DNA from: a virus | Virus record (IMG/VR): IMGVR_UViG_3300030333_000465 | Span: 12,349 to 42,090 of that record | DNA: 29,742 nucleotides | Strand: one strand, 5' to 3' | Part shown: one piece after another, positions 8,737 through 26,104 of the stretch | Position numbering within the stretch: the first letter of the stretch is position 1 | Layout: each line of letters opens with the position of its first letter | Program-made: the position numbers and the translations under genes | The notes under the pieces: generated by a model | The model's database searches: none | Told to the model about the DNA's origin: nothing | The model's input: the letters and a program-made list of their open reading frames with translations, nothing else

Positions 8737-11700
8737 TTAATTTTCCTCACTAAGTTTTTTTTCTAATTCTTCAATTTTTGCTGAAAGTTCTTGTACTGCT
8801 TTTATTAATGGATGTATAAACATTTCTTGAGATACACCTTGTTGCGTGTGATCTCCAGTAGTTATAGAGTTCCAGCCACCAAAATCTGTAATGTTGTGTT
8901 TGTCCATAGCTGCTTTTACTTCTTGAGCAATTAATCCATATAGTTTTTCTGGATGATCAGCAGTAGTTTTTTCAGCATCATAATCTGGAAAACTAGGATC
9001 AAGTTCTGATTTCGCTTTCCATTTGAAAGTAACTGGTCTTAAATCATTTATAAAATCTAAACCACAATCTGTATTATCTTGTATTTCTTTTTTGTATCTT
9101 TCGTCTGACACCCTTGTCCAAGAAGCATCAGTTGTATATGGATTATAAACTCTATCGTTTCCAGAACCAGTTCCAAAAACAAAATAGTTTGAACCAACAC
9201 CTTTACACTCAAATCCTAAAACTATTTCTTTGCTTTCATTAGCTTGTTGTGCATCAGCGTTAGCACCAATAATAGTATTGTTACTTCCTATACTAGAAAG
9301 ATCACCAGCTAAATATCCAATACAAGTATTATTACTTGATCCTGTATTAGCTCCTAAAGCATCAGCACCGATTGCGGTATTTCCACTACCTGTCGTAGTT
9401 GCATCCGCAGCGTTTTGACCAACTGCTACATTTAACTGTCCTGTAGTAACTGCCTCTAATGCACTAACACCTAATCCTGTATTATAAGAACCTGTTGTTA
9501 CATTAAAACAAGCATTATGACCCATAGCTGTATTTTCAGTACCAGAAGTATTGCTATATAATGCTTGAAAGCCAACTGCTGTATTGTCGGAAGCGGTAGT
9601 TGCAGTAAATAATGCATCTTGTCCTATTGCTGTGTTGTCATCACCTGTTGTAATATCAATACCAGCTCCTTTACCCAATGCTGTATTATTAGTACCTGTT
9701 GTATTTGCTTCTAAAGCTCTAAAACCAACTGCGGTGTTATCAGATGCTGTTGTATTAGCTCCTAGAGCGTTGTAGCCTACTGAGGTATTATTAGCACCTG
9801 TGGTGTTTGATGCTAAAGCATAAGTTCCAAATGCTTGGTTTTCAGAACCTGTAGTGTTTAAATCGAGAGCGTGGTAACCAACACCAGTATTGTTACTTGC
9901 GGTAGTATTTGCAGATAAAGCTCCTTTTCCAACTGCTGTATTAGAAGCTCCAGTTGTATTTAATGTAAGAGCAACAAGACCTACAGCAGTATTGTCGTTT
10001 GCTGTTGTATTAGCTTCTAAGGCTTTTTGTCCTACTGCTACGTTTTGCGTTCCAGTTGTATTCGCTGATAAAGCATCGTATCCAACTGCAACATTATTAG
10101 ACGCTGTGGTGTTAGCATCTAAAGCATTAGCTCCGACTGCTACGTTTTGAGTACCTGTTGTGTTTACAGTTAAAGCATTTATACCAACTGCTGTATTGTT
10201 ATCTGCTGTTGTGTTAGCTCCTAAAGCACTTTGACCAATAGCAGTGTTATTGTCTCCTGTAGTATTAGCATCTAAAGAATAAGAACCTACTGCTACATTT
10301 TTTTCACCTGTTGTAGTTAATTTTCCAGAATTATAGCCAATGGTGACATTTTTCTGACCTGTGGTTATTGCTTCTCCAGCACCTCTTCCAAGAGCAGTAT
10401 TTTTAGTACCTGTGGTAATTGCTGCACCCGCATTAAACCCAACAACTGTATTATCATCACCCGTTGTCAAGGCTGCAAATACATCAACACCTACACCAGT
10501 ATTGTAGTTAGCAGCATCAATAGTTCCTGTAGCATTGTCTCCAATCATAATTGAAGAAGTACCAAAAGTTTTAGCATCTGATAAATCGTTTATTGAACTA
10601 GCTCCACCACTAGCAGCATTTTCCCAAGCTACTCCACTTCCTGTAGAAGTTAGTACTTGTCCATCACTACCTTGTGATCCACCAACTGTTAGGTTATCTG
10701 TTTCTAGTGTTCCATCAATATCTACGTCACCGCTTATGTCTAATGTGGCTGCGTCTAACTCACCTGTAATAGTTAAGTTTCTTAAGCCTGTGTAATCTTT
10801 ATTAGAATCGAGTATGACTGCTTTAGATGCTATTGCTGTGCCGACAGCCGTTGAACCTAAGTCTAATGCGTTTATTTCACCAACAACAACTGTTGCTCCG
10901 TCTAGGATATTTAGTTCTGCTGCAGTACTTGTAACACCATCAAGTATATTTAACTCTGCTGTAGTGCTTGTAACACCATCAAGTATATTTAACTCTGCTG
11001 CAGTACTTGTGACACCGTCTAAAATGTTTAACTCGGCTGCTGTAGAAGTAACTGCAGTTCCGTTAATTGATAAAGCGTCTGTTTCTAAAGTACCATCAAT
11101 ATCTGCATCACCTGAAATGTCTAGAGTTGCAGCGTCTAGTTCACCTGTAATAGTTAAGTTTCTAACACCTGTATAATCTTTGTTAGAATCTAGTATAACT
11201 GCTTTAGAAGCAATAGCTGTACCAACTGCTGTAGAACCTAAGTCTAGTGCGTTTATTTCTCCAACAACTACAGTAGCTCCATCAAGTATATTAAGTTCTT
11301 CTGGTGTAGAACTAATCTGAGTAGTTGAAGCTGCAGCTAATACTGGAATTGTACCAGATACATTAGGAAGATTTATTGTTCTATCTCCTGTAGGATCAAC
11401 AATGCTTAGTGTAGTTTCGTGTGCATCTGCTGTAGCACCTTCAAAAATAATAGCATTTGAAGCTTCCATTGTAACGGTATCTACAGTTGTTGTTGTTCCT
11501 GATACACTTAAATTAGGAACAAGAAGTGTTCCTGAACTTGGATTGTATCTTAATGCTCCTGTATCATCAAGTAAAGCATTTGACTCGTCATGGAAAACAA
11601 CAGGAAAATTTGTATTTGCTGTGCTGTCAGATACTGTAACTGTTGAAGCTAGTGTTACTGTAGTTCCTGCAATAACACTTGATAAAGCTGTACCATTAAC

Positions 11701-13089
11701 TGTAATTGCATCAGCTTCAAGAGTACCGTCTATGTCTGCGTTACCACTAATATCTAAAGTAGCAGCATCAAGTTCTCCAGAGATTGTAATGTTTCTACCA
11801 CCGCTTATATCTTTATTAGAATCTGTAATAATTGCTTTACTTGCAATAACTGTACCGTTAGTAATGCCATCAATAAGATTAATATCCGAAGCACTTGCTG
11901 TAACTCCATCAAGTATATTGAGTTCTGCTGTGGTGCTAGTTACACCATCTAAAATGTTTAATTCTGATGCAGTACTTGTAACACCGTCTAATATATTTAA
12001 CTCTGCAGCAGTTGAAGTAACTCCGTCTAAAATATTTAATTCTGCAGTAGTTAATGTAGCTCCGTCAAGAATGTTAAGTTCTGCTGCAGTTGATGTTGTA
12101 GCTAAACTTACTGCTCCACTAGAAACTGTAAAATCATCTGAACTAAATGAAGCTACACCTTTGTTAGATGTGCTTGCATCTTCACCTGCAATAGTAATTG
12201 TATTGCTAGATGCAGAAGTATCAATACCTTCTCCACCTGCTATAGTCAATGTTTCACTATCTAAGTCAATAGCTATTGTACCACTATCTGTAGTAGCATC
12301 TAAATCTTGTGCTGTTACTTGAGAGTCTACATAAGCTTTAATAGACTGTTGAGATGCAATACCTGTAGCACTATCAGAAGACAAATCATCTTCATCAAGA
12401 AATGCTTTACCATCTAGAATGTTTAACTCTGCTGCTGTAGAGGTTACTCCATCCAATATGTTTAGTTCTGCAACAGTAGATGTAATTCCGTCTAGCGCAT
12501 TAATCTCTGCTGCGGTAGCTGTAACTCCATCAAGGATATTAAGTTCTGCAACAGTAGAAGTAATTCCATCAAGTGCGTTTATTTCAGCAGCAGTAGCAGT
12601 AACACCGTCCATTATGTTTAATTCTGCTGTAGTTGCAGTAACTCCGTCTAGTATATTTAGTTCGGCTGCGGTAGCACTTATAGCAGTTCCATTAAAGTTT
12701 ATTGCATCTGCATAAAGTGTTCCATCAAAATAACCATCTTTAAACTCTAAAGAACTTGTGCCTAAATCAATATCGTTATCTGTAACAGGAACAATAGCTC
12801 CATCTTGAACTCTAATTTGTTCTACAGCAGCACTAGAAACTTCTACAAAAAAACCAACTCTATTATTAGTTCCATCAACAACAACTTTATTTAAAAAGTC
12901 TAAGTCTCCTATTTGTGGAACATTACCACCTTGTCCTGCGCTTCCATCATGTCTGTGTCCTGTAGAAGATGCGCTACTTGAAGAATAGCTAAAAGCGTTT
13001 AATAGTTGATTGTATTCGTTATTAAAAAGCGCAGCAGTTATAGTATCTCCGTCTGCTATTGTACTTTGTCTGGTGTATGATTGAGCCAT
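8737..13089 (-). CDS. Repeat-rich tail fibre with C-terminal peptidase S74 chaperone domain, 1450 aa
   Basis: Four parts can be seen. Residues about 1-140 form a non-repetitive N-terminal region, the likely tail attachment part. Residues about 145-730 carry many copies of a [12 protein letters not shown] unit, mixed with longer duplicated blocks ([14 protein letters not shown] and [20 protein letters not shown] each occur more than once). Residues about 850-1285 carry roughly 25 units of about 15-17 residues with the pattern NTAVGxxAL-xxNTTG. From about 1320 to the end is an S74-type intramolecular chaperone: SDERYKKEI has the Ser and Lys expected of the autocleavage dyad, followed by [11 protein letters not shown] and a final coiled coil ([16 protein letters not shown]). 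By family, the chaperone trimerises the fibre and then cuts itself off. Host recognition is inferred. Confidence 0.9.
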
Positions 13090-23935: not shown

Positions 23936-23964
23936 AGTATATAGTCAAATAAGTATCTTGTCAA
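23936..23964 (-). promoter_or_regulatory. Leftward sigma70 promoter for the late block
   Basis: Read leftward, TTGACA (23,959-23,964) and TATACT (23,936-23,941) are separated by 17 bp. The predicted start is near 23,929, giving a leader of about 33 bases before terS. Its -35 box is 18 bp from that of the opposing promoter. Confidence 0.85.
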
Positions 23965-23982: not shown

Positions 23983-24011
23983 TTGACAAACTTAAAAATA
24001 AACTATATAAT
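23983..24011 (+). promoter_or_regulatory. Rightward consensus sigma70 promoter
   Basis: TTGACA (23,983-23,988) and TATAAT (24,006-24,011) with a 17-bp spacer are a perfect consensus. The predicted start is near 24,018, where a hairpin begins (TGTGCC at 24,018-24,023 pairing with GG-CACA up to 24,035, one bulged T). No protein gene starts within the next kilobase, so its first product is RNA from the left palindrome arm. Confidence 0.9.
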
Positions 24012-24222
24012 AAATTATGTGCCGAGCAGGTCACATATGTAATACTCCATAGTCCTTTAAAGTCCGCAGATATACCAGTTTACATCTGGTTAACTACTAA
24101 AACTTCTAAAAATGTATAATCAATACATAGATATCTAGTGGCATGGGTATGGTCTTCTGCCCACCCTCTAAAAAGAATCTGCTCATCAGCAATCCACCTA
24201 TCAGTAGATCCCTTCGTTTATT

Positions 24223-24841
24223 GAGAGCTTAATTTAGTATTAAACAATAATTTTTTATTACTTCTTTCCAGTATTTATCACTCTATAATTCTAATTATTA
24301 CTCTGAAGATTTCTAAAATCACCATAATTCTGCTTTATTGGCTTTAGAATTCTTCTTATCTGTTGTCATGCTTCAGAATCTTCAGAGTAATAATCTAATT
24401 ACTCTATAGATTTTAAAAGTTTGTTATGTAATAAAAAATTATACAAGCTTCTGATGTATTACCGAGGATGAATATAAAAACTTATAGCTACTTTCCAAGT
24501 CAATGTTTGCTATTGGCAAAAAGCTTGTCGTTTAATACTGTCTGCCTGATAATTTGTCTGGGCGTTAAAATAAACTGAGCCTACTTTTTGTGTCAATGAA
24601 ATCATTTAAAAAGCAGTTTTCAGTATCATTGACTCTCTAGAACACTTGACTTTATTAAATTGTAGATTGCTTTCTTGAAAATACTAGAGGCTGATGAGCA
24701 TCTGAATACTATCTGTGAATCTTGGCTTCTATCGAAAACAATTTCACGACCTTTTTAACGAATATCTAAGAGCTTATTACTGTTTCGTCGTAACGAGACT
24801 GATAGATTACAATTACGTCAGGGTTAATTCCTCTGTGATTT
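24223..24841 (-). pseudogene. Decayed inverted copy of the 64-aa and 133-aa genes
   Basis: Read leftward, this stretch aligns throughout with 25,013-25,657. The AGAGGAAT ribosome site of the first gene is kept, but the ATG is CTG, the third codon is TAA, and a 2-base indel shifts the frame within 14 codons. At the second gene the ATG is again CTG (about 24,616-24,618) and an insertion leads to a stop after five codons. The terminator at the far end has also lost its stem: AAGCTCTC is kept, but the second half reads GGGATC instead of GGGAGCTT. The copy cannot make either protein. It may be a simple relic, or kept for its pairing with the intact arm. Confidence 0.75.
24247..24442. repeat. 196-bp palindrome nested in the left arm
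   Basis: Perfect arms ATAATTTTTTATTAC (24,247-24,261 with 24,428-24,442) and an 18-base ATTATTACTCTGAAGATT (24,294-24,311 with 24,377-24,394) share one centre near 24,344. The intervening part aligns loosely. The right arm of the large palindrome has no equivalent, so it arose or was kept separately. Confidence 0.8.
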
Positions 24842-24849
24842 GAGAAGGG

Positions 24850-24889
24850 AACTAGAAAAAACATTTAAACTTTTAAAGTTTTTCTAGTT
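24850..24889. repeat. 40-bp hairpin insert near the palindrome centre
   Basis: AACTAGAAAAA (24,850-24,860) and TTTTTCTAGTT (24,879-24,889) form an 11-bp perfect A/T-rich stem. The right arm lacks this stretch: flanking sequence on both sides aligns without it. It has no U-tract outside the stem, so it is a poor intrinsic terminator. Confidence 0.65.
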
Positions 24890-24908
24890 AACGATAACTA
24901 CAAGATTA

Positions 24909-24983
24909 TAATATGCAAGTGTTTTGCATTAAAATGAAAAAAATTGTAATTTATTTAGAACAATTTCAAGCACTTGCATATTA
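24909..24983. repeat. Central 13-bp inverted repeat of the large palindrome
   Basis: TAATATGCAAGTG (24,909-24,921) and CACTTGCATATTA (24,971-24,983) are perfect complements 49 bp apart. Within the loop, AAATTGT (24,941-24,947) pairs with ACAATTT (24,960-24,966). It lies 50 bp upstream of the first rightward gene and could be an operator for a regulator, or simply the hinge of the inverted duplication. A TATAAT at 24,907-24,912 overlaps its left half but has no good -35 box. Confidence 0.75.
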
Positions 24984-25032
24984 GAATCTTTCCGCTAATC
25001 AATTCCTTCTTTAAATCACAGAGGAATATAAC

Positions 25033-25227
25033 ATGACAGAAATTCTAATAACATTCTCTAACAACGAAACAGTAATAATTCAAAAATATTCTTTGGTTAA
25101 AAAGGTCGTGAAATCTTATTTAGATAGAAACTTTTTAATCACAGGATTCAGATGCTCATCAGCTTCTGATTTTCTACGGCTTCAATCTAAAATTGAAGAA
25201 ACTCAACCAACCTATAGAGGTAAATAA
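25033..25227 (+). CDS. Early-type hypothetical protein, 64 aa
   Basis: The ATG follows an AGAGGA site by 8 bases. The product begins MTEILITFSNNETVIIQKYS, then a basic part (LVKKVVKSYLDRNFLITGF) and ends in KIEETQPTYRGK. A mixed alpha/beta small domain is likely; no family was recognised. It is the first gene of the rightward block, and its start lies in the right arm of the large palindrome, so its ribosome site (25,020-25,027) can pair with the left-arm block at 24,827-24,841. A decayed inverted copy lies in the left arm. The reading frame is kept intact here, which suggests selection for the protein. Confidence 0.7.
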   Translation: MTEILITFSNNETVIIQKYSLVKKVVKSYLDRNFLITGFRCSSASDFLRLQSKIEETQPTYRGK

Positions 25228-25230
25228 CAC

Positions 25231-25632
25231 ATGAAAACATTAAATGATTTCATTGACACAAAAAGTGCAGACAAGTCTGCCGGTTTTAACGCTAACAAAT
25301 TATCAGGCAGACCTTGCACTCGCAAGCAAGCTTATTGTGTAGCAAACTTCACATTGGAAAGTTTCATTTCCAAGGTTTTTAATTCTGATCCTCGTGAGAA
25401 TGCATCAGATGCTCTCAAAAAATCTTTTGATAATCGAATCAAAGCTCGAATTTCTAAAGTTATTTTAGATGATAAGAAATTTGATTCTGATGCATGCCAA
25501 CCATACTTCGAGGATAATTCTAAAGCTCTTCCTAAGAGAATTATGGTTAAAGTAACTAAATCTTTTAAGGAACATAATCAACAGAAAACTCCAGTTGATA
25601 ATTTCCTTATGGAAGTTGAGACTAAATTATAA
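25231..25632 (+). CDS. Early-type hypothetical protein, 133 aa
   Basis: Starts 3 bp after the previous stop, with AGAGG inside the end of that gene as ribosome site, so the two are coupled. The protein is basic and polar: a DKSAGFNANKLSGRPCTRKQAYCVANFTLESF region (about 14-45) and a C-terminal part with KALPKRIMVKVTKSFKEHNQQ. KLSGRPCTRKQAYCVA may be a helical DNA- or RNA-binding segment, but this is a guess and I know no family. It ends just before a strong terminator. A frameshifted inverted copy lies at about 24.22-24.62 kb. Confidence 0.7.
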   Translation: MKTLNDFIDTKSADKSAGFNANKLSGRPCTRKQAYCVANFTLESFISKVFNSDPRENASDALKKSFDNRIKARISKVILDDKKFDSDACQPYFEDNSKALPKRIMVKVTKSFKEHNQQKTPVDNFLMEVETKL

Positions 25633-25649
25633 GATTTAGTTACTAAATT

Positions 25650-25683
25650 AAGCTCTCTTTAGAAATAAAGGGAGCTTTTTTTA
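25650..25683 (+). terminator. Intrinsic terminator with GAAA tetraloop
   Basis: AAGCTCTCTTTA (25,650-25,661) pairs over 12 positions (one G-U) with TAAAGGGAGCTT (25,666-25,677), enclosing a GAAA loop and followed by a T-run to 25,682. It closes the two-gene unit. The matching place in the left arm keeps the first eight bases of the stem but not the second half. Confidence 0.9.
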
Positions 25684-26104
25684 TGTTTATATTAGAGCAG
25701 ATTCTTTTTAATAATTTTCTATGGAAAATTCTGGTGGGCAATGTAAATGAGTAAAACTCAGCTCTTTATATGACCATACCCATGCTTAAATTTAAATATA
25801 TGAGTCAATAACGGCTTTTAAAAACCGCCTGAGTACTGAACGATTTGCCTGTTAGTAACCTGTTTTATTACTGTGGATAACTCTGTATAAGTTGTGGATA
25901 ACTTATTTTTACTTACAATTTAGCCCTAATATTATTAAAGTTTTAGAAGTTTTAGAAGTTTAAAAACAACTACCACTAAATACTCAATCCCTAACATTTA
26001 ACTTTCTTAAACTCCGTAGATTATACAGGCAATCCTAATATCGTGTCAAGTGTTTTCTCTATTTTATTATTTTAATTAGTGTCTTCGGCTATTGTTATTC
26101 GTGC
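25684..26104 (+). other. Gene-free AT-rich segment, candidate replication origin region
   Basis: No reading frame is supported here. From left to right it holds the outer end of the palindrome's right arm (to 25,785), two local perfect hairpins absent from the left arm (AATTTTC-TATG-GAAAATT near 25,714 and TGAGT-AAA-ACTCA near 25,748), a CGG...CCG hairpin near 25,812, a GTAACCTGTT at 25,855-25,864 (also seen beside the 26.1-kb promoter), two DnaA boxes, and then a strongly AT-rich stretch with tandem GTTTTAGAA units at about 25,940-25,960. Confidence 0.6.
25872..25901 (+). other. Two perfect DnaA boxes 21 bp apart
   Basis: TGTGGATAA occurs at 25,872-25,880 and again at 25,893-25,901, the reverse complement of the consensus TTATCCACA. 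The 21-bp step puts both on the same helix face. An AT-rich tract with short tandem repeats follows, as in DnaA-dependent unwinding regions. A weaker TGTATAAG lies between them. Origin function is a prediction. Confidence 0.65.

Follow-up and report, generated by a model that had tools for sequence, protein, structure and literature searches.

A giant palindrome with covarying arms in uncultured marine phages, inferred to form a hairpin on the strand antisense to a two-gene unit

We found that a family of uncultured marine viruses of bacteria, from a lineage related to SAR11 phages, carries a palindrome as long as a two-gene operon, which is kept and re-matched base by base across the lineage. 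Long palindromes are normally lost from DNA genomes. One arm of this palindrome encodes two small orphan proteins, P1 and P2, and the other repeats the same unit in inverted orientation with its reading frames broken. Across the family the mismatches in the stem are of the kinds that favour pairing of the antisense strand. We infer that a giant hairpin is formed by the antisense strand, most likely as RNA, and this hairpin appears to be undescribed so far.

The stretch of DNA analysed here (the window) comprises 29,742 nucleotides and is part of a 42,090-base IMG/VR record (IMGVR_UViG_3300030333_000465, positions 12,349 to 42,090). Its leftward genes include terS, terL, the portal gene and other structural genes, and its rightward genes begin beyond the palindrome. 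The features at the locus are given below with their strand; all promoters are sequence matches only.

23936..23964, - strand: leftward promoter TTGACA-N17-TATACT, back-to-back with PR, in front of terS
23983..24011, + strand: PR, a rightward promoter of sigma-70 consensus type, TTGACA-N17-TATAAT; the family conserves it upstream of the left arm
24012..24165, + strand: leader (head), conserved and structured, between PR and the left arm; also in relatives, in L094 at 2512-2770
24000..24942 (approximate), - strand: left arm, non-coding, the P1-P2 unit copied in inverted orientation with broken frames; strong core 24141-24924
24925..24967: centre of the palindrome, apical loop, with inverted repeat arms at 24902-24924/24968-24990
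24951..25943 (approximate), + strand: right arm, coding; strong core 24968-25785
25033..25227, + strand: P1, orphan protein of 64 aa, ORF in the right arm
25231..25632, + strand: P2, orphan protein of 133 aa, ORF in the right arm
25650..25677, + strand: intrinsic terminator closing the P1-P2 unit, mirrored in the left arm (perfect block 24223-24239/25641-25657)
25872..25901, - strand: two perfect DnaA boxes, TTATCCACA, by the right arm; putative replication origin
26020..26049, - strand: leftward consensus promoter TTGACA-N18-TATAAT, right of the palindrome

The limits of the arms were obtained by self-alignment, and the core is at 24141-25785. A preliminary description of this DNA had taken that span for the palindrome as a whole; it stands as the core, but similarity reaches somewhat further. 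All of the perfect blocks which the same description had listed between the arms were present and colinear, including those of 27 nt (24583-24609/25240-25266), 18 nt (24540-24557/25295-25312), 17 nt (at the terminator), 16 nt (24169-24184/25695-25710) and 14 nt (24141-24154/25772-25785). When the reverse complement of the left arm was aligned with the right arm with gaps, the check it had proposed, we found 686 identities, 139 mismatches and 98 gap openings. The self-alignment score was 608, compared with 281 for the best of 100 mononucleotide shuffles. The claim that a whole two-gene unit had been duplicated holds in part, as the inverted copy is present but only the right arm has the genes and the terminator intact. 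The stem matches the extent of the P1-P2 transcription unit, terminator included. A perfect 18-bp hairpin at 24294-24394 is found in the left arm only and is without a mirror in the coding arm.

With a P2 homologue from one relative (L034) as query we recovered 61 loci, 60 of which had enough flanking sequence to judge. The giant palindrome was kept in all 60 of these complete P2-bearing relatives, at protein identities of 48-100%. The palindromic locus measured 0.7-1.9 kb across the family and adjoined terS in every locus where terS was found. A screen with blastn only missed the palindrome in six loci, and sensitive self-alignment recovered all of them but L142, where the contig is cut. One group of near-identical contigs (L005-L009) has approximately 82% DNA identity to the window and also keeps the palindrome. 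The preliminary description had reasoned that relatives with the right arm alone would point to a neutral relic and that a foldback junction would point to an assembly artefact. We found no right-arm-only relative among the 60. The structure is present in approximately 65 independent metagenomic contigs with diverged and frame-broken arms, and a foldback assembly artefact is therefore excluded.

Additional, more distant contigs found by a terminase search also had giant palindromes in this position. Three more distant contigs (L024, L043 and L047) have shorter palindromes upstream of terS, and their gene pairs, though different, resemble P1 and P2 in size, order and look; homology was judged only by eye. 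The isolates nearest by terminase are the Pelagibacter phages HTVC115P, HTVC104P and HTVC103P (65-68% identity). HTVC103P-type pelagiphages such as HTVC115P share the terS-terL block and have a consensus promoter where PR lies, but HTVC115P has neither the giant palindrome nor P2. P2 was absent from all phage isolates in the collection searched, and a search for bacterial genomes with P2 found none.

The left arm of the window contains no ORF of 50 aa or more on the strand matching the genes (- strand). Among the 60 relatives, at least 13 frame-breaking indels separate the left arm from the coding arm in every locus (median 25), and despite these indels approximately 83% of the aligned arm positions are complementary. 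Since the left arm is frame-broken in every locus and yet remains complementary to this extent, this indicates that its conservation is that of a pairing partner, not of a gene. The reading of the left arm as a second gene copy was rejected, as the frame is broken in 60 of 60 loci.

Across the family P1 and P2 are proteins of 60-150 aa, and neither gave a significant match in Pfam, PHROG or PDB folds. P2 is under purifying selection, with dN/dS of approximately 0.06-0.28 in relatives (for the window and its relative L008, dN 0.09 and dS 0.49). P1 evolves much faster than P2, with dN/dS up to approximately 1, as expected for a protein in an arms race. The relatives of P1 were predicted with high confidence to fold as beta-beta-alpha-beta-alpha (pLDDT 92), and those of P2 were predicted to be helical (pLDDT 82). 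A Foldseek likeness of P1 to T7 Gp2 was weak and not significant (E 2.5), and was discarded.

The preliminary description had suggested that selection acts on pairing or on the arrangement, and had proposed that the arms be examined for covariation. In the L005-L009 group the two arms of a genome match each other over approximately 1.57 kb (E ~1e-105), while an arm of the window matches a relative's opposite arm at E ~1e-9 or weaker. Similarity within a genome is thus far greater than similarity across genomes, which indicates that the arms change together inside each genome. Double substitutions at paired positions were 2- to 20-fold above independence in 16 of 16 pairwise comparisons, with, for example, 25 observed vs 5.3 expected, 23 vs 4.5 and, for the window and L008, 38 vs 14.6. 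Most doubles restored Watson-Crick pairs (28 of 38 for the window and L008); the comparison of lowest divergence, L125 and L130, had one double only, which was uncompensated. Of 146 doubles leading from one Watson-Crick pair to another, 113 were isolated single pairs. In an alignment of 12 sequences (A6), 114 of 502 pairs had changed on both sides, and covariation was 0.195 vs 0.128 +/- 0.003 when shuffled and 0.058-0.076 when slid, the structure having been taken from one member, which favours the true register over slid versions. The covariation beyond shuffled and slid controls that a hairpin should show was thus found, and the changes in the arms respect pairing, which supports the earlier inference of selection. 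Template switching is known to create hairpins and to mimic compensatory change (PMC8794818). As it gives the same pattern, covariation alone is no proof of selection, and in the window alone selection on pairing cannot be separated from homogenisation by template switching.

We then counted isolated mismatches in the stem, only where they were flanked by Watson-Crick pairs. Read on the gene strand, A/C opposite A/C occurred 483 times (CA 173, AC 116, AA 105, CC 89) vs 134 times for G/T opposite G/T (TT 47, GT 37, TG 34, GG 16). A/C mismatches were favoured in 31 lineages vs 4 with the opposite preference; because the lineages are related, these counts are not independent. On the complementary (-) strand the A/C mismatches read as G-U, U-U and G-G, which are the best tolerated kinds; on the + strand the same positions bear the kinds tolerated worst. 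The bias was also present in the non-coding stem, at 22:5 beyond the P2 stop codon and 47:14 between and upstream of the genes, and along the genes it was spread with no concentration at start codons. This suggests that more than avoidance of structure at start codons is involved, and accessibility of translation starts as the sole cause is unsupported. Mutational skew as the cause was rejected by neutral sites, as fourfold sites of neighbouring genes have an A+C content of 0.48-0.52.

Predicted folding also differed between the strands. For the large G-U-rich clade to which L090, L094, L122 and L133 belong, the predicted fold of the - strand was more stable than that of the + strand by 92-237 kcal/mol, vs a difference of -17 +/- 16 kcal/mol in control stretches. 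The + strand too folds far below control stretches, and this was found in all lineages. The strand bias of the window itself is weak (13:9), and its fold difference of 33 kcal/mol is within the range of its own controls. The bias is likewise weak in L008 (17:10) and several other lineages, and is absent or slightly reversed in L102, L110, L143 and L144. L096 is nearly perfectly paired on both strands. The family is split between members with many G-U pairs on the - strand (30-60; L090, L094, L122, L133 and relatives) and members with almost none (L096, L102 and L110).

The explanation that we tentatively prefer is that a - strand transcript is under selection for pairing and that, once folded, its mirror copy would sequester the antisense RNA of P1-P2. 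Transcription running leftward through P1-P2 would yield RNA antisense to the entire P1-P2 message. Within the same - transcript, the left arm would be a mimic of that message, and by folding back it would close the antisense over its full length, from 5' UTR to terminator, into a giant rod-like hairpin. Closure would keep the antisense off the P1-P2 mRNA, or would make its release regulable, and the + strand mRNA would stay less structured and translatable. Several observations weigh against this explanation. The strand bias of the window is weak and some lineages show none or a slight reverse. No leftward promoter is conserved in the right flank across the family, whereas the rightward PR is conserved; the leftward promoter at 26020..26049, from which the antisense strand would be transcribed, has a perfect sequence in the window and L008 alone. 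Furthermore, a single-stranded DNA hairpin of the - strand would also be consistent with the mismatch preference.

With rather more reserve, we suggest that the locus may represent a new class, a giant (0.7-1.9 kb) self-sequestering antisense hairpin RNA of dsDNA phages with a continuously updated full-length mimic of its target, possibly acting with P1/P2. If the RNA reading is true, the stem would be among the longest covarying helices known to us, and would provide a new way of antisense regulation.

Homogenisation by template switching, in which replication copies arm onto arm, is an unlikely alternative. The compensation would then be mutational, the inverted copy would have little function, and the strand bias would reflect selection for an unstructured P1-P2 mRNA. 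Such a process would account for the covariation that is also seen in lineages without strand bias, and for the nearly perfect pairing on both strands in lineages such as L096. However, all 60 genomes, widely diverged as they are, retain an inverted copy that is costly and deletable, the A/C bias extends past the stop codon into the non-coding stem, and the doubles are mostly isolated pairs and not tracts. If template switching were the true cause, the locus would be a natural system in which to measure concerted palindrome evolution and strand-specific selection.

The palindrome could instead act as DNA, as a hairpin or cruciform in which, for example, the - strand is exposed as the lagging-strand template when a fork leaves a neighbouring DnaA-box origin, with a role in replication, priming or packaging near terS. 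We regard this as rather improbable. In 27 of 50 loci a cluster of perfect DnaA boxes lies just to the right of the right arm; almost all of the boxes are on the - strand, and their density there is 1.5 per kb vs roughly 0.04 per kb elsewhere. In relatives the clusters lie about 0.5-0.7 kb right of the P2 start. These clusters, as a putative replication origin, and the constant position beside terS are consistent with a DNA role. DNA, too, tolerates G-T, G-G and T-T mismatches well. However, many members retain the palindrome but lack the boxes, among them much of the G-U-rich clade, and a DNA role leaves unexplained the exact match of the stem to the P1-P2 transcription unit.

Equally, a structure acting in cis within the + transcript seems improbable to us. 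A single RNA started at PR would run through the head, the left arm and P1-P2, and its hairpin would control translation of P1-P2, for instance by opening only when ribosomes follow the polymerase. Among the promoters of the locus PR is the strongest and best conserved, and it reads in that direction; in nearly all loci in which the full-length stem was delimited, it precedes the left arm by approximately 160-390 bp (mostly 280-306). The stable folding of the + strand in all lineages would also agree with such a structure. Yet it predicts G-U pairs on the + strand, where A-C, A-A and C-C predominate.

A decaying inverted duplication or an assembly chimera would account for the frame-broken left arm but is highly improbable, since the arms covary, the contigs are independent and no P2 gene was found without the palindrome; a neutral relic was rejected on the covariation and on this last finding.

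We compared the locus with known systems and found no description of a comparable locus in the open-licence literature. A search of Rfam 15, which includes GOLLD and ROOL, with the window and eight relatives gave no match at the gathering score, and a permissive search with L094 gave a chance-level match only. GOLLD, ROOL and OLE of bacteria and phages are likewise very large structured RNAs, some of them phage-encoded (PMC12286853). They are, however, compact and multi-branched with curated Rfam models, whereas the phage locus would form one very long rod, and unlike in these RNAs the opposite strand of the phage hairpin codes for two proteins. Obelisks and viroid-like rods also combine a self-pairing rod of approximately 1 kb with small orphan proteins and are abundant in the sea (PMC11922315, PMC13096302), and the phage locus shares a rod-like predicted secondary structure of approximately 1 kb. 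In contrast, Obelisks are circular RNA replicons without a DNA counterpart that encode Oblins, while the phage locus lies in the dsDNA genomes of tailed phages, between the terminase and early genes, and encodes two small proteins. The locus is internal with conserved flanks, unlike the inverted repeats of DNA telomeres or transposons, and ORFs inside or beside the palindrome had no transposase or protelomerase match. Type I toxin-antitoxin systems and RNAI/RNAII share with the locus the idea of an antisense to a small gene unit, with possible regulation by an RNA duplex. To our knowledge, known cis-antisense RNAs are short and none carries a full-length mimic of its target on the same molecule.

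The leader between PR and the left arm contains a hairpin (GTTAACTAG...CTGGTTAA) and the motif TATGGTCTCCTGCC, and parts of it are carried by HTVC115P. It gave no Rfam match and is possibly a small RNA of its own. Elsewhere in the window, positions 8737-13089 encode a large protein resembling a tail spike, which has many repeats in tandem and carries an S74 peptidase chaperone domain at its C terminus.
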